Of a DNA stretch of 64,000 bases, positions 5,799 to 18,326 are shown piece by piece. Source of the DNA: Actinoallomurus spadix (GTDB lineage Bacteria; Actinomycetota; Actinomycetes; Streptosporangiales; Streptosporangiaceae); the NCBI RefSeq assembly GCF_024055725.1, contig NZ_JAMXMX010000008.1, forward strand, positions 1 to 64,000. The letters run 5' to 3'. How positions within the stretch are numbered: the first letter of the stretch is position 1; each line of letters begins with the position of its first letter. The notes under the pieces are model-generated. The model saw nothing but the letters and a program-made list of their open reading frames with translations, did not search any database and was not told the DNA's origin. Position numbers and translations under genes: made by a program.

Positions 5799-6019
5799 CG
5801 GCGCCGACGCTGGTCGACGGCCTGACGCCACCGGTCGGAACCGAGGTGGCGTCGGCAGCCTCGATGCTGGGCCGCCGCTTCCCCTCCGCGGTGATGTGGT
5901 TCGGAGCGTTTACGCGCCGGTGGTGGGCGCTGGTGTGGGCCGGCGGCCGGTGGCAGCTCATCGACGCTGCCGGACCGGAAGAACTCACCGGAGCCATCAT
6001 CAACGCTCACAGGAGATGA
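5795..6019 (+). CDS. Small hypothetical protein coupled to upstream gene
   Basis: A 74-residue product starting at the ATG that overlaps the previous stop by four bases. It is rich in Trp (MWFGAFTRRWWALVWAGGRWQLIDA), giving a compact beta-like pattern. No family recognised. A perfect 17-bp hairpin follows about 80 bases downstream and closes the two-gene unit. Confidence 0.65.
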   Translation: MTAPTLVDGLTPPVGTEVASAASMLGRRFPSAVMWFGAFTRRWWALVWAGGRWQLIDAAGPEELTGAIINAHRR

Positions 6020-6101
6020 GGACCCCACGCGGTCGGCCAGGGTCGAGGAGGGCTGGCCGCGCGGTACCCCCACGTCCTTCCGGCGTAGTGGGGTGATCGG
6101 G

Positions 6102-7698: not shown

Positions 7699-8697
7699 TT
7701 AGATTTTCCTGTCAAGACTCGCTATGCGACGCTTTTGCCGGAGCGATCCAGTACGGTCCACCAGGATGCGGGCGACTTGTAGGTGTTCATCGGCAGATCT
7801 GCGCTCGCCCCGAACCAGCAAGGCGGTGGCGAGATCGATTCGGGCGCTTGCCTCAGCGCGCGCATACGTTCCATCCACTCCGACGAGCCCGGCACTCAGG
7901 TCTTTTCTCGGACCGCGTCAGCATCGACGCTTCTCATGCTCGCCGCCATCTCGGCTTGCGCGGCCGCGAGCCAGGTTCGCATAAGGTCCGGCACCTTGCC
8001 GGCGGCTTGGTGTCGCGCGTATTCGACCAGTTCGGCAGCCTGCTCCGCGTTCCCCAGGTCGAGAAGTACGTAGGCCTGTTCGGCGGTCGCGAAGGCAAGC
8101 AGCGACGGATCTTCCGCTTCGCGTGCTGCGGACTTTGCGCGTTCGAAGTGTTCCCAGGATTCGCGTGGAGTGCCGACGTCAAGCGCCTGCCAACCAGCCA
8201 GTGCGGGAGGTATCTGCCAGCACTTTGGCGAGCATGGCGCGTACACCGGGCTTCACGGCGTGGCGATGCAACTCCTCGATGTGGGCGATGTGGGCGCGCA
8301 TCTGATCGCGGATGAGTTGGGCGCCCTGGCGTCCATCGAGAAGCCGGAGACCATCCGTCTGGGCCTGAAGCAGGCTGGCGACCTCCGCGTCAACGGACGC
8401 GGCACGTGCGAGCTCGGTCGCGAGCTCGTTGAGCGGTTCCTGATCACTCGCCCTGATCTCCGCCCGTTCAACGAAGCCCAGTTCGGCCGGTGAGCACTCG
8501 TACACCTCGCAGAAGAGCGGCTGGTAGAACTCGCCGACCGGGCCGTGTCCGTTCTCCCAGCGCGCTATCTGGCGGGCGAGGCTCTGAGGCTGGGGAAGCA
8601 CCTCCCCGCGCCTGGCGGCAGCCTGGCGTAGCCGCGCGTCGAGTTGGGTCTTGGTCCATCCGCGTTGCTCACGCTGCGCGCGCAACGGGGTCGTCAC
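7699..8697 (-). pseudogene. Decayed XRE regulator, paralogue of the gene at 4119-5234
   Basis: The N-terminal part (GTG 8697, AGGAG six bases upstream) encodes a helix-turn-helix with QSLARQIARWENGHGPV and continues to VLADTS. There the frame shifts near 8195-8215 and resumes as AGWQALDVGTPRESWEHFE, matching AAWQALDVGAVGQAWAHYE in the paralogue. A second break near 7893 leads into a third frame with ARIDLATALLVRGERRSADEH and ends QKRRIASLDRKI at 7699. Relative to the paralogue about 60-70 residues are missing between the last two parts. Two frameshifts plus a deletion make it a pseudogene. Confidence 0.8.
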
Positions 8698-8758
8698 CAG
8701 CACTCCTAGCCGTACAGGTCGCACATGTTTACTGACCTGCATTCTCCCGGTTCTGCCT

Positions 8759-8796
8759 GGCCTGACAAGGGGATGACAGTCATCCGTTGTCAGGCC
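8759..8796. promoter_or_regulatory. Nested 38-base palindrome
   Basis: Outer arms GGCCTGACAA (8759-8768) and TTGTCAGGCC (8787-8796) are exact reverse complements and enclose a second palindrome, GGATGAC-A-GTCATCC (8771-8785). It lies in the divergent spacer between the decayed XRE gene and the first element gene at 8956. It may be an operator, possibly two nested sites, or a shared hairpin. Confidence 0.6.
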
Positions 8797-8880
8797 GTGT
8801 CATCTACTGCCGGACGACGCCGGCGGCGAACCTGGATCTCGTCGGGCCGACGAGGCCAAGGCTCCACAAGCAGAAGGGAC

Positions 8881-8920
8881 TTGACAGGTGATCGCCAAGG
8901 CGCGTTATCTGTACATGTAC
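8881..8920 (+). promoter_or_regulatory. Candidate promoter with GTACATGTAC palindrome
   Basis: TTGACA at 8881-8886 and TTATCT at 8905-8910 are spaced 18 bases apart. They are followed directly by the palindrome GTACATGTAC (8911-8920), where a repressor could block transcription. The first gene of the element begins 36 bases further on, preceded by GGAGGAGG. Confidence 0.5.
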
Positions 8921-8955
8921 TTCTTGTCTAGCAAACGAGCGGAGGAGGTTCGCTG

Positions 8956-9126
8956 ATGTTCCCCCAGCCGAAGAAGTGGCCGCGCTACGTGGTCGGCGCG
9001 ATCGTCGTGGTCTTCGTGTTCAAGAACCCCACCGCCGCCGCCCACATGGCCAACAACCTCGTTGGCCTCATCTCCCAGGGTGCCGCTGCGCTGGGCAAGT
9101 TCGCTTCCGCTCTGCACGTCGGCTGA
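8956..9126 (+). CDS. Small membrane protein of integrative element
   Basis: A 56-residue protein: a basic start (MFPQPKKWPR) followed by a membrane helix (YVVGAIVVVFVFK) and an Ala/Gly-rich tail (LISQGAAALGKFAS). GGAGGAGG lies seven bases before the ATG. Such short proteins are common at the head of conjugative-element operons in actinobacteria; the function is not known. First gene after the candidate promoter. Confidence 0.7.
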   Translation: MFPQPKKWPRYVVGAIVVVFVFKNPTAAAHMANNLVGLISQGAAALGKFASALHVG

Positions 9127-9180
9127 TCCGCTGCACAGCCACCAAGCACGGCATCGGACCCGCCGCCCCAACCGATCACG
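9127..9180 (+). promoter_or_regulatory. Conserved stem-loop leader element, copy A
   Basis: The constant loop ACAGCCACCAAGCACG is flanked by short complementary arms (TCCG 9127-9130 and CGGA 9155-9158) and followed by CCGATCACG ending at 9180. It lies between the small membrane gene and the WhiB gene, whose start is 25 bases downstream. Its stem is the weakest of the four copies. Confidence 0.75.
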
Positions 9181-9204
9181 TCCCCCATCAACCCGGAGGT
9201 TCGC

Positions 9205-9537
9205 ATGAACACCCACCCCAGCCGACTCCTGCTTTCAGACCTGCGTGACGCATGCCTCGACGGCGCCGAGTGCCTGTTCGACCCCGAACTCCACGACGGC
9301 CCCGGCGACGGCGAGGCCATCGAGCACCCCCACGAGCGGGCGGCACGCGAGGACATCGCCAAGGACATCTGCGGCACGTGCCCGGTACGGGGTGCCTGCT
9401 TGGAGTACGCGGTACGCACCATGCCCGAGCGAGGCATCTGGGCCGGCCTGAGCGCGGAAGAGGTCGCGGCCGTCGCCGATTTGTGCGCCGACCACGAGCA
9501 GCCGACCGGCCGCGCCGCCTACCGAGACGTCGCCTGA
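9205..9537 (+). CDS. WhiB-family iron-sulfur regulator
   Basis: The 110-residue protein has the WhiB cysteine pattern: Cys23 just before FDPELH, then Cys56-x2-Cys59-x5-Cys65 in DICGTCPVRGACLEYA, followed by the G(I/V)W turn GIWAGLSAEE (77-86). These cysteines hold a 4Fe-4S cluster in the family. An extra Cys17 could replace Cys23 as first ligand. GGAGG precedes the ATG. WhiB proteins on mobile elements are thought to control element genes or developmental programmes of the host; here it may sense redox state to time transfer, which is inference. Confidence 0.9.
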   Translation: MNTHPSRLLLSDLRDACLDGAECLFDPELHDGPGDGEAIEHPHERAAREDIAKDICGTCPVRGACLEYAVRTMPERGIWAGLSAEEVAAVADLCADHEQPTGRAAYRDVA

Positions 9538-9579
9538 CGCCTGGCATCCCGATTCGTAGTGAGAGGAGATCAACGCGTC

Positions 9580-10050
9580 ATGTCCGCGATCCGATGTGAT
9601 CTTGCTGGCCTGCTCCGCGAGGGAGCGCGCGGCTACCATCCCGCAGAAGCGTCGATCAACCTGTTGATCGATCACGGAATCTGGCTGCGCCGTCAGGACT
9701 TCGCCGGTGCGTTCGTGGTCTTCAACGATGAGCAGTCGGCCGCCGTCATCGACTGGCGGCAGGCCATCAAGGCGTTGGACGCCGGTGATCTGCCGTGCTC
9801 GACGAGCGAGGCGAAGATTCTCCGCCTGGCCGCCGCTCTCGACGACGGCCCCGGCGTCGTGCTCCGAGAGGTGCTCATCGGCCTCGACGCCCACAACATC
9901 CGCCTCGTGGCCCAAGCCGTCCTTCACGCGAACGGCACCACCAACGGCACCGTCACCGTTCCCGAACCGGGCCGGTTCCCGCCCGGCGTCCGTGTCCTGG
10001 ACGCCGCCGACAACGTCCTGCAGAACGGCCAGGACGAGCAGCGGCCGTGA
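9580..10050 (+). CDS. Hypothetical element protein
   Basis: A 156-residue acidic soluble protein with a GAGAGGAG ribosome site. It has a helical N-terminal half (LINLLIDHGIWLRR-like segment, FAGAFVVFNDE, WRQAIKALDAGDL) and a Pro-rich end. No domain recognised. Position between whiB and the spdB-like gene suggests an accessory role in transfer or maintenance. Confidence 0.7.
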   Translation: MSAIRCDLAGLLREGARGYHPAEASINLLIDHGIWLRRQDFAGAFVVFNDEQSAAVIDWRQAIKALDAGDLPCSTSEAKILRLAAALDDGPGVVLREVLIGLDAHNIRLVAQAVLHANGTTNGTVTVPEPGRFPPGVRVLDAADNVLQNGQDEQRP

Positions 10051-10062
10051 CCCCAAGTATTT

Positions 10063-10115
10063 CCGGCGCACAGCCACCAAGCACGGCGCCGGACAGCGGC
10101 TCCCGACCGATCACG
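10063..10115 (+). promoter_or_regulatory. Conserved stem-loop leader element, copy B
   Basis: Arms CCGGCGC (10063-10069) and GCGCCGG (10086-10092) pair perfectly around the constant loop ACAGCCACCAAGCACG. CCGATCACG follows at 10107-10115, and then the ribosome site of the DUF2637 gene starting at 10135. Confidence 0.85.
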
Positions 10116-10134
10116 CAACCGAAGGAAGGCCATC

Positions 10135-11235
10135 ATGGCTGACCCGTACGTCCCTCCGCGCCTGACCGCCGTTCCGGCCCCGGCCGAACCCACGAGCGAT
10201 GAGCGGACGCGAGCGCTGACCGAGCACGAACAGACCGCCGTCGTGGTGGTCGGCGGCTTGGTCGCGGCCCTGGGGCTGTTGGGATTCGTCAACAGCTTCG
10301 CTCGCGTCGCTGCGGCGGCCCGTGCCTCGTTCGGCTGGTTCGCCTTCACCGTGCCCATCGGTATCGACCTGGGGATTGCGGTGTTCTCCGCGCTCGACAT
10401 CGTGCTTGCCCGGCTGGATATGCGGATTCGGTGGCTGCGGCTGATCCCCTGGTCGCTGACCGGCGCAACCGTCTACCTCAACGTCGCCGGCGAGGCATCG
10501 GTGTTCGGCGTCGTGGCGCACGCGGTGTTGCCCGCCTTGTGGGTCGCGGCGGTCGAGGTCGCCGCGCATGTCGTCCGCACCCGCGCCGGGCTGGCCGCCG
10601 GAACCCGGATGGACTCGATCCGGCTATCCCGGTGGTTGCTTGCCCCCGCGCCTACCGTCCGGCTGTGGCGTCGCATGGTCCTTTGGGAGACCCGGTCCTA
10701 CCCGGCCGCGCTGGTGCGCGAGCGTGACCGCATCCTCGCCCTCACCGACCTGAAAGACACCTACGGCGCCGTCGCGTGGCGGTGGAAGGCGCCCCGCCGG
10801 ACGAAAGCCCTCTACAAGCTCGGTGAACTGATCCCCGCGGTGAACCTTTCCGCTCTGCCCGCCGCACCCACGGCAGCGGACGGTCCCGTAGACGAGACGC
10901 CCGCGCCGTCCGGTACCGCCACGAAGACGGCACGCCGGACGGACGGACCGGCCAAGCGCGGACGGTCCGCCGGACGGGCCACCACTCGGCCCCGGGCGCG
11001 GTCCGGGGCGAAGCGCCGGACCGTCCCGAACGTCGATGAGCTCATGCCGACCGGACGGCGCATCGCCGCCGAGTTGGACGAGCGTGGCGTAGCGCTGACC
11101 CGCGACAGTTTCGCCGCCGCTCTGCGCGAGGCAGGCCAGACCGCCGGTAACGAGCGCGTCGGCGCGTTGCTCGCTCGTCTCAAGGCCGAATCCGCCGCCC
11201 CTGCCGACTCCGACCGTGAAGGAGTGCAGCCGTGA
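10135..11235 (+). CDS. DUF2637 (SpdB-like) membrane transfer protein
   Basis: The 366-residue protein has four hydrophobic segments in residues 35-155 (AVVVVGGLVAALGLLGFV, FAFTVPIGIDLGIAVFSALD, PWSLTGATVYLNVAGEAS, VVAHAVLPALWVAAVEVAAH), the DUF2637 arrangement. A basic Arg/Thr-rich linker follows (about 265-305) and then a helical C-terminus. SpdB-like proteins help spread conjugative elements between hyphal compartments. The stop overlaps the traB start, so the two are coupled. Confidence 0.85.
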   Translation: MADPYVPPRLTAVPAPAEPTSDERTRALTEHEQTAVVVVGGLVAALGLLGFVNSFARVAAAARASFGWFAFTVPIGIDLGIAVFSALDIVLARLDMRIRWLRLIPWSLTGATVYLNVAGEASVFGVVAHAVLPALWVAAVEVAAHVVRTRAGLAAGTRMDSIRLSRWLLAPAPTVRLWRRMVLWETRSYPAALVRERDRILALTDLKDTYGAVAWRWKAPRRTKALYKLGELIPAVNLSALPAAPTAADGPVDETPAPSGTATKTARRTDGPAKRGRSAGRATTRPRARSGAKRRTVPNVDELMPTGRRIAAELDERGVALTRDSFAAALREAGQTAGNERVGALLARLKAESAAPADSDREGVQP

Positions 11236-13409
11236 CCGACCGCACCCGCGAGGCCTCCGCTGAGACGCGCGGCATGGGTGACCTCATCCCCCTGCGCCGG
11301 ACCACCGCCGCGACGGACACCGCCAACGGCCACGAGATGAGCCCGGACCGTGCTGCGCGCGAGACCGCGACGGCGCCGGACACTCACTATGAGGTCACCC
11401 TTGACGACGAGCCGCCCGCCGAAGCCGTCCCTGTGCTGCCTGCGGCCCCGGACGCGTCCGGGCAGTGGCAGCCGATCATCCCGCCCGCTCTGCGTACCTG
11501 GGCGAGCGTCAAGGCGTCGGTGCGGCAGATCATCGGCCGGTGGGCGCACCAGGCCGGCTATCACGCCGTCCGCGCTCCGCAGTACGCCATGCTCGGCGGT
11601 TTCTGGGCCGGTGTCGGCGTCTTCCGGCTGATCGGCCGTCAACTGCGCTGGTGGTGGGTCACCGAACAGAACACCCTCCGCCAGTACGCCGCCGACCGCA
11701 ACGACGCCGAGGTGTGGATGAAGCTTCACCGGGAGGTCAAGGCCACCCGCACGTGGCGGGGCATCGTCCTCCTCGGCGAGACGGCCGGTGTCGGCGTCGG
11801 CGCGTCGATGGTGGCCAACGGTCCATGGTGGGTGAGCGCGGTCACCCTCGCCGTGGCGGTCCCCGCCCTGGCTCATGTTGGCCGCCCGATCGACCGGCCG
11901 ATCATCTCCCCGGCCGTCGTCGCGCCCCGGTTCCGTAAGCTCAACCCCGACATCGTGCTTCGCGCGTACTACGCCGCCAGACTCGGCGACCCCGACAAGC
12001 CCGGCCAGCAGATCCAGTTCGGTTCAACGATGTCCCGCGACGGCGAAGGGTCCCGTGTGCTGATCGACCTTCCGCACGGCAAGGGCCTCGACGACGCCAT
12101 CCGCGCCAAGCCCGCCATCGCCTCAGGGCTGGACGTGGCTCTTTCCCAGGTCTTCATCACCCGCGATCCCACCTCTCACCGGCGCCACGTGCTGTGGGTC
12201 GCCGACCGTGACCCCCTCGCCGTCCCCGCCGGCCGTACGCCGCTGCTGGCGTGCAAGCCCACCGACATATGGCAGCCCGCGCCGTTCGGCCTCGATGAGC
12301 GCGGCAACCGCGTCGGCGTGGACATGATGTGGAATTCGATCCTCGTGGGTGCCCAGCCCCGGCAAGGCAAGACGTTCTCCGCCCGCGCTCTGGCCCTGTT
12401 CGCAGCCCTCGACCCGTACGTCAAGCTCAGTGTGTTCGACGGCAAGGGGTCGCCCGACTGGCGCAAGTTCAAGCTCGTCGCCGACCGGTGCGCGTTCGGC
12501 ATGGCGATGACCCGCGACGGTGACCCCGTCGAGCTGTTCATCGACGCCCTACGCGAGATCGAGCGCGACGTTCAAGACCGCTATCAGCGGCTCTCGGAGC
12601 TTCCGGTGGACGTGTGCCCCGAGGGCAAGCTGACCCGCGAGATCGCCCGTGATCCGAAGTACCGGATGCCGGTCCGGCTCGTCGTGATCGATGAGTTTCA
12701 GGAGTATTTCGACCTCCCGGACCCCGACGCGTCCAAGGAGATCGCCAAGCTGCTGGTGTTCCTGGTCAAGGTCGCCCCCGCGGCCGGCGTCATCGTCCTG
12801 GGCGCCACCCAGAAGCCCAGCGGCATCGGTACCGGCCAGGTCGCCCAGCAGTTCAACGCCTTCCGCGACAACCACCAGATTCGTTTCTCACTGCGTACGG
12901 GCTCGTGGCAGGTGTCGGATCTGGTGCTTGGGTCGGGCGCCTACTCGGAGGGATACGACTCCTCGACGCTGCTACCGACGTACAAGGGCGTCGGGATCCT
13001 GCGCGGCGCGACCGACGCCACCCCGACCGTTCGGACCTACCTTGCCGACGCCGAAGACGCCGAGAAGATCCTGACCGCCGCCCGCACCCACCGGCAGCGC
13101 GCCGGAACGCTGTCCGGCATGGCGGCCGGCGAGGACGTCGCCCGCGAGGTGCGCGACGTGCTCGCCGACGTCCGCCGGATCTACGGACCCCGCGAGCGTG
13201 GCTTGCACTGGCAGCAGATCGCCGCGCGCCTCGCCGAGACGTTCCCCGAGCACTACGCCGACCTGACCGCCGATGCGATCTCCGCCCAAGTCCGCGCGTT
13301 CGGAGTCCCGAGCGTGGACGTCAAGCGTGACGGCCAGGTCCTCAAGGGCGCCAAAGCCGACGCCATCGACGCCGCGATCAACCGCCGCAACGACGCCGCC
13401 GCAGGGTAG
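11232..13409 (+). CDS. traB: TraB-like FtsK/SpoIIIE DNA translocase
   Basis: The 725-residue protein has an N-terminal membrane part (hydrophobic segments about residues 110-135 and 170-215) and an ATPase core with Walker A VGAQPRQGKTFSA (near 372) and Walker B RLVVIDEFQEYF (near 482). After the motor comes a basic-acidic region ending in a small winged-helix-like domain (GLHWQQIAARLAE, VSAQVRAFG-type segment). In actinomycete elements one hexameric TraB moves double-stranded DNA between hyphae, and its C-terminal domain reads octamers in the clt locus. GTG start overlaps the preceding stop. A matching octamer cluster lies immediately downstream. Confidence 0.9.
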   Translation: MTDRTREASAETRGMGDLIPLRRTTAATDTANGHEMSPDRAARETATAPDTHYEVTLDDEPPAEAVPVLPAAPDASGQWQPIIPPALRTWASVKASVRQIIGRWAHQAGYHAVRAPQYAMLGGFWAGVGVFRLIGRQLRWWWVTEQNTLRQYAADRNDAEVWMKLHREVKATRTWRGIVLLGETAGVGVGASMVANGPWWVSAVTLAVAVPALAHVGRPIDRPIISPAVVAPRFRKLNPDIVLRAYYAARLGDPDKPGQQIQFGSTMSRDGEGSRVLIDLPHGKGLDDAIRAKPAIASGLDVALSQVFITRDPTSHRRHVLWVADRDPLAVPAGRTPLLACKPTDIWQPAPFGLDERGNRVGVDMMWNSILVGAQPRQGKTFSARALALFAALDPYVKLSVFDGKGSPDWRKFKLVADRCAFGMAMTRDGDPVELFIDALREIERDVQDRYQRLSELPVDVCPEGKLTREIARDPKYRMPVRLVVIDEFQEYFDLPDPDASKEIAKLLVFLVKVAPAAGVIVLGATQKPSGIGTGQVAQQFNAFRDNHQIRFSLRTGSWQVSDLVLGSGAYSEGYDSSTLLPTYKGVGILRGATDATPTVRTYLADAEDAEKILTAARTHRQRAGTLSGMAAGEDVAREVRDVLADVRRIYGPRERGLHWQQIAARLAETFPEHYADLTADAISAQVRAFGVPSVDVKRDGQVLKGAKADAIDAAINRRNDAAAG

Positions 13410-13570
13410 CGGCACACCCGCTACCGGTCGCGTCCACGCTACCCGGCCCGCTACCCGCCTCACCTGCGCGGATGAGCCCAGGTAGCGGGTAGCGGCCCCC
13501 ACTTCGCACGCCCGAAAACCGTCCCAGGAGGCCACCCGTGACCCTGCTTGCCGCTACCGCAACCGCTACC
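13404..13570. repeat. Eight GGTAGCGG octamers after traB, candidate clt locus
   Basis: GGTAGCGG or its complement CCGCTACC occurs exactly at 13405, 13418, 13448, 13481, 13488, 13551 and 13563, plus one 7-of-8 match at 13436. Three are on the plus strand and the rest on the minus strand. The cluster begins at the traB stop and ends inside the next gene. TraB proteins of Streptomyces plasmids bind 8-bp repeats in clt next to traB; this has the same unit size and place but a different sequence. Confidence 0.75.
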
Positions 13571-13810
13571 GGTGACTCGGCCGGAAGCCTGCTCCTGTTC
13601 GCTCTCGTGATGGGCGCCGGCTACATCGCCGCGTGCGTCATCTGGCCGTTCCGCGCGTGCCGCCACTGCCGGGGCATCGGCCGCTTCCCCTCGCCCACCG
13701 GCCGCGCCTGGCGACCCTGCCACCACTGCAACGGCACCGGCGCCAAGCTCCGTCTCGGCCGCCGCATCTACACCCATTTCAAGAACACCCGTGACCGCGG
13801 CACCCGCTGA
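13538..13810 (+). CDS. Small membrane protein with DnaJ-like zinc knuckles
   Basis: A 90-residue protein with a membrane helix near residues 16-37 (LLLFALVMGAGYIAACVIW), followed by two CxxCxG knuckles (CRHCRGIGRF, CHHCNGTGAK) as in DnaJ zinc-binding regions, and a basic tail. GGAGG precedes the GTG start. Two clt-like octamers fall within its 5' end. Role in transfer is suggested only by position after traB. Confidence 0.75.
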   Translation: MTLLAATATATGDSAGSLLLFALVMGAGYIAACVIWPFRACRHCRGIGRFPSPTGRAWRPCHHCNGTGAKLRLGRRIYTHFKNTRDRGTR

Positions 13811-13894
13811 TCACAGCTTGATCACATCCAGTCGGAATATCACGGCGGTAATAAAGCCCAGCCCGCTCAGTCCTAGCGTCCAGACGCGAAAGCG

Positions 13895-13949
13895 GTCCGG
13901 CGCACAGCCACCAAGCACGACGCCGGACCGCCACCCCCAACCGATCACG
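13895..13949 (+). promoter_or_regulatory. Conserved stem-loop leader element, copy C
   Basis: GTCCGGCG (13895-13902) pairs perfectly with CGCCGGAC (13921-13928) around the constant loop. CCGATCACG follows at 13941-13949, then GAAGGAGG and the ATG at 13973. The stem bases differ from copy B while pairing is kept, which is compensatory change. Confidence 0.85.
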
Positions 13950-13972
13950 TAACCGAAGGAGGCACCTCCATC

Positions 13973-14245
13973 ATGACTCAGGCCCTCCAGCCCGGCCAGC
14001 AGAACGCCCGTACGCGCGCGGTCTGGCTGCTTCCCGAAGACGGCATCATCGACTTCCTCGCGGTCGAGCTTGCCGCCCGCGGCGTGCGGCCCGTCGCGCT
14101 CACGCCCGCTGAGCGGCGCATCGCCGCCGCCTTCATCCTCGCCACCGGCGGCACGCCCACCACGATCGCCAAGCGGCTCCACATGGCGCATTCGACCGCC
14201 CGCGCCCTGGCCGAACAGATCAGCGCCGATCACCTCGCCGCCTGA
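13973..14245 (+). CDS. Small HTH-like element protein
   Basis: A 90-residue protein. The C-terminal half reads LTPAERRIAAAFILATGG, then TTIAKRLHMAHSTARALAEQ, which looks like a LuxR- or sigma-like helix-turn-helix recognition segment. The N-terminal half (RTRAVWLLPEDGIIDFLAVEL) is of unknown fold. GAAGGAGG precedes the ATG. It is probably a DNA-binding regulator in the replication/transfer block. Confidence 0.65.
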   Translation: MTQALQPGQQNARTRAVWLLPEDGIIDFLAVELAARGVRPVALTPAERRIAAAFILATGGTPTTIAKRLHMAHSTARALAEQISADHLAA

Positions 14246-14311
14246 AAGCCGCTTCCGCCCCGCCGCCTCGCGCGGCGGGGCACCCCCAAGCCCTCGAAGG
14301 GAACCACCCCA

Positions 14312-16294
14312 GTGACCAAGCCAACCGCGCTCCGCATCATCGACGGCGACCAGCCCGACGCGGAACCCGGACGCGCGCTCCCGCACAACATCACCGCCGA
14401 ACAAGTCGTGCTCGGCACGATGATGCTCTCACCGGCCGCCCTCACCGAGGTTCGCGAAGTGCTCGACGGCAGCGAGTTCTACCGGCCCGCCCACGCGCGA
14501 ATCTGGGAGACGGTAACCACCCTCGCCGACCGAGGCGCCCCCTGCGACCCCTTGGCCGTCGGCGCCGAACTCGGCCCTGACCTGAGCAAGACGGGCGGGG
14601 CGCCCTACCTACACACCCTCGTCGCCCAGGTCCCCACCGCCGCCAACGCCGGTTACTACGCCCACATGATCCGTGACCTGGCCTACGCCCGGAAAGTGAT
14701 CGAGACGGGAACCCGGCTCATCCAACTCGGCCACGAGGCCACCGGAGAAAGCGCGAGCAACCTCCGTGGCACCGTCACCACCGAAGTCGCCGAACTGACC
14801 TCCGCCGACGTACGCGGATGGCCCGATCCTGTCCCACTGACCGCGACGGCCACCGACTTGCCCGTCTTCCCGCTGTGGACACTGCCGGACTGGATCGGCG
14901 AGTACGCCGCAAGCCTGGCCGAGGTCACCCAGACCCCGCCGGACCTGGCGGGCTGCCTAGCCCTGGCCGTGCTCGCCGTCGCGGCCGGCGGGAAGGTGTG
15001 GGTGCAAGCCCCTGCATGGCGCGAGCCGACGAACCTTTTCACCGTCGTCGTGCTGCCGCCCGGCAACCGCAAATCCGAGGTCTTCCGCGCGATGTGCGCC
15101 CCGATCGTCGAGGCGGAAAAGGCGCTGATCGCCGAGGCTGAACCGGTGATCGCCAGTGCGGTCATCGCCCGCCGAATCGCCGAAGCCGAGGCCGACAGAG
15201 CGGCGAAAGCCGCCGAGAACGCCACCGGCCTGGACCCCGTACAGAAGACACTCGCGATCACCGAGGCCGCTGAGGCGAAACTCGCCCTCGACGCCGCGAC
15301 CGTTCCGCCCCGCCCGCGTCTGTTCTCCGATGACGCCACCGTCGAAGGACTCACCTCACTCCTATGCGAACAGGGCGGGCGCATGGCCGTCCTATCGCCC
15401 GAAGGCGAGATCTTCTCGATCGCCGCCGGACGCTACTCCGGCGCTCCGAACTTCGCCGTCCTGAAGAAAGGTCACGCGGGAGAAGAGATGCGCGTCGACC
15501 GGATGAGACGCGAATCCGAGCACGTCGAGGCCGCCACCGTCACCCTGGGAATCTGCACACAGCCCGGTGTCCTGGCCGAACTCGGCGCGACCCCCCAATT
15601 CCGCGACCAAGGACTACTCGGCCGCCTGCTCTACTCGGTCCCGCGCTCCTTGCTCGGACACCGCAAGCACAACCCCGACCCCATGCCCGCCGACCAAGAG
15701 ACCACCTACCAGACCCGCGCCAAGGCGCTCGTGCTCTCTCTGGCCAAGCTCACCCAGCCCGCCATCCTCACCTTCGCCCCCGACGCCCAAGCCGCGATCA
15801 CGCGGCTTCTGGCCGACACCGAACCCCACTTCCGCCCAGACGGCGACCTGGCGCACATGACCGACTGGGGAGGCAAGTTGGTCGGCGCCGTCGTCCGCAT
15901 CGCCGGACTACTGCATCTGGCCAGGCACCTCCGCGATGGCTGGAATCAGCCGATCAGCGCTGACACGTTCGCCGACGCCCGCGACATCGGCGAATACTTC
16001 ACCGCCCACGCCAAAGCCGCCTACGACGCCATCGGCGCCGACCCCGCCACCGCCGACGCCCGCGCCATCCTCGACTGGGCACGCAACACCAGCGCGGCCC
16101 GATTTGCCGCCCGCGACGTCCAGCCCGCACTACGCGCTCGGTTCAAGAAAGTCACGGACCTCGACCCGGCACTACGCGTCCTGGAAACCCACGGCTGGAT
16201 TCGCCGGCTGCCGCCATCCCCGCGCACCGGACGCGGACGCCCGTCCGCACCGCAATACGAGGTACACCCCTCCGCGCTGGAAACGAACCGATGA
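14312..16294 (+). CDS. DnaB N-terminal domain fused to DUF3987, replication protein
   Basis: The 660-residue protein begins with a DnaB-helicase N-terminal domain (about residues 22-135: ALPHNITAEQVVLGTMM, YRPAHARIWETV). From about residue 185 it has a DUF3987 region with a P-loop-like VVLPPGNRKSEVFRAM and later LFSDDATVEGL and GLLGRLLYSVPRS. The last 90 residues resemble a winged helix (RFKKVTDLDPALRVLETHGW). DnaB-N normally mediates contact with primase or helicase loader, so the protein may load replication machinery on the excised circle. The element has no RepSA or Prim-Pol gene in this window, so this is the best replication candidate. Confidence 0.75.
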   Translation: MTKPTALRIIDGDQPDAEPGRALPHNITAEQVVLGTMMLSPAALTEVREVLDGSEFYRPAHARIWETVTTLADRGAPCDPLAVGAELGPDLSKTGGAPYLHTLVAQVPTAANAGYYAHMIRDLAYARKVIETGTRLIQLGHEATGESASNLRGTVTTEVAELTSADVRGWPDPVPLTATATDLPVFPLWTLPDWIGEYAASLAEVTQTPPDLAGCLALAVLAVAAGGKVWVQAPAWREPTNLFTVVVLPPGNRKSEVFRAMCAPIVEAEKALIAEAEPVIASAVIARRIAEAEADRAAKAAENATGLDPVQKTLAITEAAEAKLALDAATVPPRPRLFSDDATVEGLTSLLCEQGGRMAVLSPEGEIFSIAAGRYSGAPNFAVLKKGHAGEEMRVDRMRRESEHVEAATVTLGICTQPGVLAELGATPQFRDQGLLGRLLYSVPRSLLGHRKHNPDPMPADQETTYQTRAKALVLSLAKLTQPAILTFAPDAQAAITRLLADTEPHFRPDGDLAHMTDWGGKLVGAVVRIAGLLHLARHLRDGWNQPISADTFADARDIGEYFTAHAKAAYDAIGADPATADARAILDWARNTSAARFAARDVQPALRARFKKVTDLDPALRVLETHGWIRRLPPSPRTGRGRPSAPQYEVHPSALETNR

Positions 16295-16449
16295 GCGCCG
16301 CAGAGCGTCACCGTCACCCCGGCGCCCGAACACTCCCGCGCCGTGAAGCACGTAAGCGAAAAGCAGCAAAAACATTTCTGCTGATTTCCGCTTACGCGCT
16401 TACCCCCGCACGCCCGCCACCACCCCGCACCGGCAGACACCGACCGCGA

Positions 16450-16502
16450 CCGGCGAACAGCCACCAAGCACGCCGCCGGCCACGTCACCCCGACCGATCA
16501 CG
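16450..16502 (+). promoter_or_regulatory. Conserved stem-loop leader element, copy D
   Basis: CCGGCG (16450-16455) pairs with CGCCGG (16474-16479) around AACAGCCACCAAGCACGC. CCGATCACG follows at 16494-16502 and the excisionase GTG is 24 bases further on, behind GGAGGAAC. Confidence 0.8.
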
Positions 16503-16525
16503 ACCACCCCGGAGGAACCTGCTCC

Positions 16526-16723
16526 GTGAAGACCGCCGAACGTACCCGCGACAAGCTCACTCTCGCCGAGGTCTGCGCCGAACTCGGTATCTCCCGCTCG
16601 ACCTTCTACGAATGGCGCGCCAAGGGGAAGGCGCCCCGCTGCATCACCCTCCCGAACGGCAGCCTCCGCGTCCGCCGTACCGAACTCGACCGCTGGCTCG
16701 AAGTGCGAGAGGACGCCGCCTGA
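16526..16723 (+). CDS. xis: Excisionase (helix-turn-helix, MerR-like)
   Basis: A 65-residue DNA-binding protein with the excisionase pattern LTLAEVCAELGISRSTFYEW, then LPNGSLRVRRTELDRWL. It would bend att-site DNA so that the integrase excises rather than integrates. The stop overlaps the integrase ATG (TGATG), the usual xis-int order in these elements. GTG start with GGAGG nine bases upstream. Confidence 0.9.
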   Translation: MKTAERTRDKLTLAEVCAELGISRSTFYEWRAKGKAPRCITLPNGSLRVRRTELDRWLEVREDAA

Positions 16724-18102
16724 TGCAGGACATCACCTACGACGTCCGCGTCTACAAGACCGAGGTCTACAAGGGCAAGAAGGTCACCACGTACTACGTC
16801 CGGTGGAAGACCGGCGGCAAACCGTGGAAGGAGCCCTTCCGTAAGGCCGCACAGGCCGACAGCTTCCGTTCCTCGCTCCTGGCCGCGGCCCGTAATGGCG
16901 AGGCGTTCAGTCTCGACACCGGCCGGCCGGTCTCGTGGAAGCGCGAGGAATCCGCGATGTCCTGGTACACGCTGACGCTCGACTACACGGCGGCGAAGTG
17001 GCCATACGCGTCGCCGAACCATCGGCGAGGCATCGCCGAAGCCCTCACCGACGCCACCGAGGTCATGCTCGCCGGCGACGGTCCCCATGATCACGACGAG
17101 ATCCGGCGAGCCCTCCGGACTTGGGCGTTCAGCGATCGTCTGCGCGGCGTTACCGAACCCCCCGCCGACCTCAGCGCCGTTGTCCGGTGGTTGGAAGGCA
17201 ACACGGTCCCCGTCAAGGAACTCACCCAGCCGGGAAGCGGCGCCGTCCGTGTCCGCGCTCTACTCGACCGCATCAGCAGAACCAAGGACGGCAGCACCGC
17301 GGCGGCGAGTACTGCCACTCGCAAGCGCATGACCTTGACCAACATCATGCAGTACGCGATAGAGATCAACGTTCTGCCTGACAACCCGCTCCGCAGCATC
17401 AAATGGAACAAGCCCCGGACGCTCAAGACCGTTGACCCGCGCGCGGTGGTCAACAGTGAGCAGGCACGGCGCTTCCTCGACGCCGTACGCGCCCAGGGCG
17501 AGCGAGGGGCGCGCATGGTGGCCTTCTTCGGCTGCATGTACTACGCCGCGCTGCGCCCCGAGGAAGCGGTGGATCTGCGCCGCGAGAATCTGGTCAGCCT
17601 GCCGGACGAAGGGTGGGGCGAGATGCTGCTGACCCACTCCGAGCCTCGCAGTGGTAGCCAGTGGACGAACAACGGCCAGGCCCGCGAGCGACGAGAGCTG
17701 AAGCACCGGGCACCAGGCGAGACCCGTCGCGTCCCGATCCATCCCGAACTGGTGAAACTCCTCCGCGATCACCTCAAGGAGTTCGGTTCCGCGACCGGCG
17801 GTCGGGTGTTCGTCGGCCCGCGGGGCGGCATCCTCACTGACCGGGCGTACCTGGCCGTCTTCCACGCCGCCCGCGCCACTGCCTTTACCGACGAGGAGAC
17901 GGCGTCTCTCGTGGCCCGCCGCCCGTACGACCTACGCCATGCCGCCGTCTCGACGTGGCTCAACGCGGGGGTGGCCCCTCCGCAAGTCGCGGAGTGGGCC
18001 GGCCACAGCGTGGATGTCCTCTTGCGGGTCTACGCCAAGTGCATCGCGGGACAGCAGGAGGAGGCCAAGCGGCGCATCCTCGCGGCGACCCAGCCTCGAT
18101 AG
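16723..18102 (+). CDS. int: Tyrosine site-specific integrase
   Basis: The 459-residue protein joins and cuts att-site DNA. An SAM-like core-binding domain spans about residues 80-230 and the catalytic domain 240-440. Catalytic residues visible are Arg278 (AALRPEEA), Arg405 (YDLRHAAVS), His428 (WAGHS) and Tyr437 (RVYAK). The first histidine of the HxxR box is Tyr402, a frequent variant in this group. The ATG overlaps the xis stop; the longer upstream frame is noncoding. The 3' end lies 141 bases from the tRNA-Tyr 3' end, the expected arrangement for a tRNA-targeting element. Confidence 0.93.
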   Translation: MQDITYDVRVYKTEVYKGKKVTTYYVRWKTGGKPWKEPFRKAAQADSFRSSLLAAARNGEAFSLDTGRPVSWKREESAMSWYTLTLDYTAAKWPYASPNHRRGIAEALTDATEVMLAGDGPHDHDEIRRALRTWAFSDRLRGVTEPPADLSAVVRWLEGNTVPVKELTQPGSGAVRVRALLDRISRTKDGSTAAASTATRKRMTLTNIMQYAIEINVLPDNPLRSIKWNKPRTLKTVDPRAVVNSEQARRFLDAVRAQGERGARMVAFFGCMYYAALRPEEAVDLRRENLVSLPDEGWGEMLLTHSEPRSGSQWTNNGQARERRELKHRAPGETRRVPIHPELVKLLRDHLKEFGSATGGRVFVGPRGGILTDRAYLAVFHAARATAFTDEETASLVARRPYDLRHAAVSTWLNAGVAPPQVAEWAGHSVDVLLRVYAKCIAGQQEEAKRRILAATQPR

Positions 18103-18242: not shown

Positions 18243-18294
18243 TGTGGCGGGTCCAGGATTCGAACCTGGGTAGGCTGAGCCGACGGATTTACAG
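18243..18294 (-). repeat. Attachment core within tRNA-Tyr
   Basis: These 52 bases match 2509-2560 exactly in inverted orientation and cover the tRNA from the anticodon loop to just past its 3' end. This is the part that an incoming element replaces, so it marks the right boundary of the integrative element. Confidence 0.85.
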
Positions 18295-18326
18295 TCCGCT
18301 CCCATTGGCCACTCGGGCAACCCGCC
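18245..18326 (-). tRNA. tRNA-Tyr (anticodon GTA)
   Basis: The 82-base gene folds as a class II tRNA: acceptor stem GGCGGGT/ACCCGCC, anticodon stem GCGGA/TCCGT with loop CTGTAAA (anticodon GTA), a long variable arm and the T loop TTCGAAT. The discriminator is A and CCA is not encoded. It is the target gene of the adjacent integrase, and the element supplies its present 3' half. Confidence 0.95.

Follow-up and report, generated by a model that had tools for sequence, protein, structure and literature searches.

State switching of integrative elements has been studied mainly through DNA-binding repressors, and hairpins that act on gene expression are known from other mobile DNA. In the promoters of the bacteriophage N4 virion RNA polymerase, the template strand forms a hairpin close upstream of the point where transcription begins; its stem is short and its loop small, and the phage polymerase reads it partly through that loop. 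Phage nut sites and protein-bound hairpin leaders combine a variable stem and a constant loop with an adjacent conserved box. The kissing loops of antisense RNAs in IncFII/IncI-type plasmids carry UUGGCG and CGCCAA hexamers. Frpo hairpins of the F plasmid leading region fold to rebuild −35 and −10 boxes, and Frpo1 and Frpo2 are 92% identical, according to passages of the Frpo paper (PMC9849209). Here we describe constant-loop hairpins in an integrative element of Actinoallomurus spadix, on contig NZ_JAMXMX010000008.1; the 64,000-nt stretch analysed, positions 1 to 64,000 of the forward strand, is called the window. A literature search over titles, abstract openings and some passages found no description of this hairpin. 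It seems to be a shared control element not described before, which works like a hairpin leader and has no established membership in a named family.

Like the Frpo hairpins, which act on one DNA strand, the constant-loop hairpins lie on a mobile element and are repeated upstream of several of its genes. Unlike what is told of Frpo in those passages, no −35 or −10 hexamers were found at the copies scanned, and the stems differ among copies, in contrast to the 92% identity of Frpo1 and Frpo2. The elements described here also carry an FtsK-type transfer protein, a class that passages of another source tie to translocation of double-stranded DNA (PMC3218068). The element differs from N4 in that no such polymerase was recognised among the ten window genes scanned with Pfam. 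The gene-strand hexaloop CRCCAA and its minus-strand counterpart UUGGYG resemble the IncFII/IncI pair; however, the loop is near-constant across families rather than diverging, several loci occur per element, and no minus-strand signal of an antisense promoter was found at the hairpins among 94 dereplicated copies. In contrast to nut sites, a copy stands before individual genes and not once per operon, and no N-like or NusG-like gene was recognised among the ten genes scanned.

The four window copies share an identical 16-nt loop, ACAGCCACCAAGCACG, which was found exactly at 9135-9150, 10070-10085, 13904-13919 and 16457-16472, all on the plus strand. When up to three mismatches were allowed, the loop matched five times in the window against 0.60 expected, and none of 100 shuffles reached five. 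A tail, CCGATCACG, follows at 9172, 10107, 13941 and 16494, and the spacer between loop and tail is exactly 21 nt in all four copies. The tail ends 24, 19, 23 and 23 nt before the start codons of the whiB-like gene (9205), the DUF2637 gene (10135), a 90-amino-acid gene (13973) and the HTH_17 (xis-like) gene (16526), respectively. Across the whole 8.0-Mb genome, the two-part pattern of loop and tail gave four forward matches and no reverse match; the exact 13-mer of the loop was confined to the four copies, with no exact match on the reverse strand. The initial annotation had described four copies with a common loop and tail just before these four start codons, which proved exact, with tails ending 19-24 nt upstream. 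Its sites were correct, and three of its copy starts were off by 1 nt, which is immaterial.

The copies were scored with R2, a hairpin-only covariance model of 42 nt. Copy 1 (9127-9158, 47.1 bits) pairs arms 9127-9134 and 9151-9158 around loop 9135-9150; its stem TCCGCTGC/GCATCGGA has a single C.T mismatch, C9131 with T9154. Perfect stems were found in copy 2 (10062-10093, 45.7 bits; 8 bp, TCCGGCGC/GCGCCGGA, loop 10070-10085) and in copy 3 (13892-13931, 57.7 bits; 11 bp, GCGGTCCGGCG/CGCCGGACCGC, loop region 13903-13920). Copy 4 (16445-16484, 47.7 bits) has 6 bp, CCGGCG/CGCCGG, next to loop 16457-16472, and its stem continues outward past A.C and C.A mismatches. The extended tail ACCGATCACG was matched by sequence on the plus strand at 9171-9180, 10106-10115, 13940-13949 and 16493-16502. 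Within the four hairpin-tail units (9127-9180, 10062-10115, 13892-13949 and 16445-16502), seven of nine positions match between ACCAAGCAC of the loop and ACCGATCAC of the tail; judged by this likeness, they may be two binding sites, one in the hairpin loop and one unpaired. None of the four copies was matched when window positions 1-30000 were searched against Rfam release 15 with E up to 10.

Compensatory change in the stem, which the initial annotation had claimed from these four copies, is thin within the window, where it amounts essentially to a single T-A in place of G-C, next to the mismatch of copy 1; among homologues it is strong. For 104 copies picked on loop and tail alone, the arms paired with their own partners at a mean score of 25.0 versus 15.5 when partners were swapped, and none of 2000 permutations reached the observed value. 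The same test on 75 distinct left arms gave 23.5 versus 14.3. For 66 distinct copies found by the model, the covariation score was 0.623 versus 0.142 after shuffling, standard pairs filled 87.3% versus 53.4% of cells, and both-side changes were counted in 218 versus 74.8 cells; this set was fitted to the model and so leans towards pairing. Every covariation measure dropped when the partner was slid by 1-3 columns in the 66 copies. These tests are fairer than a further one on the rows of alignment A3 (24 of 49 sequences, with one pairing register and good stems), which is biased upward because the rows were picked for good stems. Alignment A1 comprised 58 of 63 dereplicated sequences, five poor fits having been dropped by eye, together with three more window copies; the dereplicated set of 63 left out L009, L046, L058 and L073.

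Relatives were recovered by the covariance-model search of actinobacterial elements that the initial annotation had proposed. Within the family, 80 of 341 genomes, from 18 of 68 genera, have R2 copies at E 0.01 or better, with about three chance hits expected and rough E-values. A few other families have the hairpin too: R2 recovered it from 6 of 35 genomes in one of them and, under stricter filters, from 3 of the 396 genomes searched over the whole phylum, the window's own included. A tail-bearing model matched in 16 of 394 genomes of the class, and the loop-plus-tail pattern with up to three mismatches matched in 19 of 297 family genomes, some of them by chance. The loop-plus-tail scan of named genomes gave 68 stretches, of which 59 were actinobacterial (Actinomadura, Nonomuraea, Actinoallomurus, Saccharopolyspora and neighbours) and nine came from Proteobacteria or Chloroflexi; eight of these nine had no stem (score below 15), and the ninth, L073, scored 17. 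Among 156 distinct stems, the loop read AGCCACCAAGCA in 64 and AGCCGCCAAGCA in 59, under a pattern that allowed two mismatches, and the near-constant part of the loop across relatives is 12 letters long. In several relatives the tail is missing and the hairpin, with loop AGCCGCCAAGCA, stands directly before the Shine-Dalgarno (SD) sequence. A tail with at most one mismatch was present in 53 of 64 copies, a figure inflated by searching with the tail; two of the searches used it as query, so it is over-represented among the collected copies.

The position and the direction of the hairpin are also conserved. All 64 copies examined point one way within each of 21 stretches; each stretch was oriented by its own hairpins, and the 64 copies were what remained of 68 R2 matches after the four weakest were dropped. 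Surrounding genes run in the hairpin direction among the gene maps listed. A start codon was called for 39 of 70 copies, and in these it lay a median of 39 nt from the hairpin (quartiles 37-48.5), whereas the distance from the upstream stop codon to the hairpin was looser (median 28, quartiles 14.5-75; 50 of 70 copies). In nine elements with an xis-like context the upstream gap was 141-196 nt, and the hairpin was still 31-40 nt from the start. The genes so preceded are unrelated: WhiB, DUF2637, HTH_17, DnaB/DUF3987, Prim-Pol, PAPS reductase, C5 DNA methylase and DpdA, joined by several small cysteine-rich genes recognised by eye and, in another family, by short peptides. Their functions span regulation, transfer, replication, DNA modification and excision. 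The DpdA-like protein, of a kind linked to deoxypurine in DNA, is encoded by a hairpin-preceded element gene at L092:2544-3386.

A constant position before unrelated start codons, in the direction of the genes, argues for expression control, and the constancy of the loop over genera and families points to a reader that is conserved too. Because stem covariation, the constant loop and the fixed position before unrelated genes occur together, with several copies per element, a shared expression element is likely. With a little less than even confidence, we favour an expression-control hairpin that is read through its constant loop and in which the template (antisense) strand probably folds. The hairpin would be a leader module of actinomycete integrative elements that controls the gene directly behind it; a trans-acting factor would recognise the constant loop (AGCCRCCAAGCA on the gene strand), and the stem would need only self-complementarity. 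It is probably not the mRNA that folds but the template strand, either in DNA, extruded or single-stranded, or in the form of an antisense RNA. The hairpin is a candidate for a shared handle on state switching of integrative elements, since 80 of 341 genomes in one family have it and its targets are diverse in function; if the template-strand reading is true, chromosomal elements of actinobacteria would join the F-plasmid leading region and N4-like phages as places of hairpin-directed expression. Either way, a defined 42-nt covariance model is available.

The assignment of the folding strand comes from the mismatches within the stems. When a mismatch had to be flanked on both sides by a canonical pair, the gene strand showed 33 independent cases of A.C and 5 of G.U; with two such pairs on both sides the counts were 28 and 2 (p 4e-6 and 9e-7 against 1:1). 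The excess also held when the expected G.U share, 0.345, was taken from the stretch 20-60 nt upstream of the loop (p 0.0029 and 0.0004). As a control, 38 tRNA acceptor stems from the same loci had six G.U and no A.C, and G.U made up 29 of 436 pairs over whole tRNA stems (20 tRNAs). Each gene-strand A.C is a G.U on the opposite strand, and calculated RNA energies were lower for the minus strand (108 of 109 distinct hairpins; means of -26.2 and -21.0 kcal/mol for the minus and the plus strand). The mismatch spectrum suggests template-strand or DNA folding rather than mRNA structure, an inference that the composition of the strands weakens.

Several observations weigh against this reading. Measured against the A/C-rich stretch 14-30 nt after the loop, where the G.U share is 0.159, the A.C excess was not significant (p 0.42 and 0.12); flanks measured in the mismatch count itself would give G.U shares of about 0.30 and 0.13 for the upstream and downstream stretches. 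Part of the energy gap comes from the G/U-rich minus loop, and perfect stems differ too (-25.4 versus -21.3 kcal/mol). A strand-neutral DNA structure is possible, as is a sense fold to which G.U pairs bring no benefit. Two actinobacterial copies among the 104, L009 and L038-6122, have no stem. TTGAC-like and TANNNT-like hexamers were not enriched at a fixed place on either strand of the 94 dereplicated copies, so that the hairpin is not seen to rebuild −35 and −10 boxes as Frpo does, and RNA polymerase was absent among the ten window genes scanned with Pfam. Moreover, copies 1 and 2 lie close behind stop codons and could simply be co-transcribed with the preceding genes.

The main rival, which we consider somewhat unlikely, is that a sense hairpin, folded in leader or intercistronic mRNA, sets the translation of the gene behind it by binding a protein or another factor. 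The stem does show the compensatory changes of a structured mRNA leader, and the position before the SD sequence, the direction shared with the genes and the intercistronic placement fit as well. Of the 11 elements listed, the window included, 10 have a TTGAC site ahead of the small gene that precedes copy 1, which makes transcription through copy 1 plausible. A consensus scan for sigma-70-like promoters over 8500-17000 found none on the plus strand and one on the minus strand (8768-8741), and did not pick up the window's TTGACA at 8881. However, the wobble tolerance expected of a sense RNA, with G.U above A.C, was not found; A.C far exceeded G.U on the gene strand, the reverse of tRNAs, and a sense fold with ordinary wobble tolerance is therefore disfavoured. 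A second hairpin that would hide the SD sequence and hold the tail in its loop was rejected, because 87 leaders scored 9.89 with their own partners versus 9.76 permuted, and 1355 of 5000 permutations equalled or exceeded the observed value. A pseudoknot of the loop with the tail or the SD sequence was likewise rejected, no complementary stretch being seen by inspection.

A universal binding protein encoded by the element was rejected as well: among the clusters listed for 21 and 41 stretches, none was universal in hairpin-bearing elements and absent elsewhere. In the 41-stretch clustering, the hairpin-negative label was partly wrong, since three of the 14 stretches so labelled (L228, L231 and L233) have hairpins of 34-43 bits and L223, L226, L232 and L237 have weak hits of 18-27 bits. 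Thus, of the proposal in the initial annotation that an RNA structure sets translation or is bound by one element protein, the covariation, the constant loop and the fixed position stood, while the mismatches and the lack of an SD-hiding hairpin spoke against the mRNA reading and no candidate for the binding protein emerged from those clusters. The link that it drew to a switch between maintenance and transfer is a guess.

A more specific form of the template-strand reading, which we regard as unlikely, is a multi-copy DNA hairpin. The template strand would fold as a cruciform or in the single-stranded state, a factor common to Streptosporangiales and some other actinobacteria would read the loop and start or gate transcription, and the regulon of the element would thereby be tied to supercoiling or to the single-stranded state during excision and replication.

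It is quite improbable that the hairpin is instead a single-strand priming site, or a module junction for replication or recombination, placed before genes only because the gaps are there. Such a site would fit repeated copies in one direction, and Prim-Pol genes occur in relatives (for example in the hairpin-bearing L013), but no Prim-Pol was found among the ten window genes scanned. Between the window and its sister element L235, a block of 86.6% identity stops directly behind copy 4 with its tail (16445-16507), and beyond it the xis and integrase proteins of the two are only 43% and 39% identical. Over all pairs of 19 stretches, right alignment ends fell at hairpins in 29 of 149 cases versus 42 of 387 at control starts, and left ends in 13 of 149 versus 7 of 387. 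This excess is biased, because a conserved island alone makes local alignments end there. The constant distance to the start codons of unrelated genes, kept even where the upstream gap is about 150 nt, also argues against a priming or recombination site. Finally, a double-stranded DNA operator recognised by primary sequence, which the constant loop and tail at their exact 21-nt spacing in the window would fit, is very improbable, since the spacing varies in relatives, most copies listed in another set lack a full tail, variable yet complementary arms have no role in a plain operator, and the homologues covary (0 of 2000 permutations) where the initial annotation had expected conserved primary sequence only for an operator.

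The element that carries the hairpins has the layout of an actinomycete integrative and conjugative element (AICE). The features given coordinates below are on the plus strand, except for the tRNA gene, which is on the minus strand. A promoter-like TTGACA (8881-8886) and the palindrome GTACATGTAC (8911-8920) lie upstream of a small 56-amino-acid gene (8956-9126) that has no Pfam hit and whose stop codon abuts copy 1. Repeats of the CCAAACG type occur near the TTGAC site in some relatives, and the palindrome is possibly a repressor operator. Behind copy 1 stands the whiB-like gene (9205-9537; Pfam Whib, E 9.9e-13), with the SD sequence GGAGG at 9195-9199, and a 163-amino-acid gene separates it from the DUF2637 gene (10135-11235; E 1.4e-16). 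The end of the latter is overlapped by the gene for a TraB-like FtsK-type transfer protein (11232-13409), which has no hairpin of its own; its plasmid homologues are annotated as FtsK/SpoIIIE, and no Pfam profile matched it at 0.001. Next in order are a 90-amino-acid gene with DnaJ-like cysteine motifs, which fall below the Pfam cut-off, and, behind copy 3, a small 90-amino-acid gene (13973-14245), which was described in the initial annotation as helix-turn-helix and has no Pfam hit. The replication-type gene with DnaB N-terminal and DUF3987 domains (14312-16294) is not preceded by a hairpin in the window, and relative L160 carries one there. The xis-like HTH_17 gene behind copy 4 starts with GTG (16526-16723; E 4e-13). 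The tyrosine integrase follows at 16724-18102; its start near 16724, right after the xis stop, is our inference, and the open reading frame listing gives one frame, 16291-18102 (Pfam Phage_integrase, E 1.6e-7). The adjoining tRNA-Tyr gene (18244-18326, minus strand) is a possible attachment site; no exact repeat of 15-60 nt was found in the window.

The tyrosine integrase, by Pfam, and the FtsK/SpoIIIE transfer protein, by annotation of homologues, are those of an AICE. AICE replication genes are RepSA, RepAM (DUF3631) or Prim-Pol in passages of PMC3218068, and the replication gene of the window, with its DnaB N-terminal and DUF3987 domains, is none of these. No 16S gene was found in the window's assembly. 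The hairpin is an addition to the transfer genes and does not belong to them in any fixed way, because stretches L223-L226, whose TraB is 64-65% identical to that of the window, gave no hairpin hit above 27 bits, while L235 has four hairpins and a TraB only 30% identical. Beyond chromosomes, three of eight scans of viral contigs gave 0, 0 and 1 match, the lone match lying inside an open reading frame by eye, and the TraB protein had no match in phages. R2 gave only 18-24 bits on six loci, five of them from plasmid records, and the three best lacked the constant loop. Distant blastn matches in plasmids reached only E 0.5-6, and three matched regions scored at most 22.3 bits by R2, none with the constant loop.

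Some single relatives deserve mention. L223 has a variant hairpin of 20 bits, with a loop ending in CCAAGCA, before an xis-like gene. In genome G1057:C1, hairpins at 1832068, 1836834 and 1841600 are spaced by exactly 4766 nt, with a fourth at 1845488, 3888 nt further on; the spacing suggests a tandemly duplicated segment. In another actinobacterial family (L106, L107, L108, L117 and L189), a tail-less hairpin precedes peptides of 36-47 amino acids that begin with MKHAL. A Nocardiopsis linear plasmid with many small genes (L249) has, by eye at about 5960-6060, a different long hairpin close upstream of the SD-like AACCGAAAGG, which is possibly an analogue of the constant-loop hairpin.

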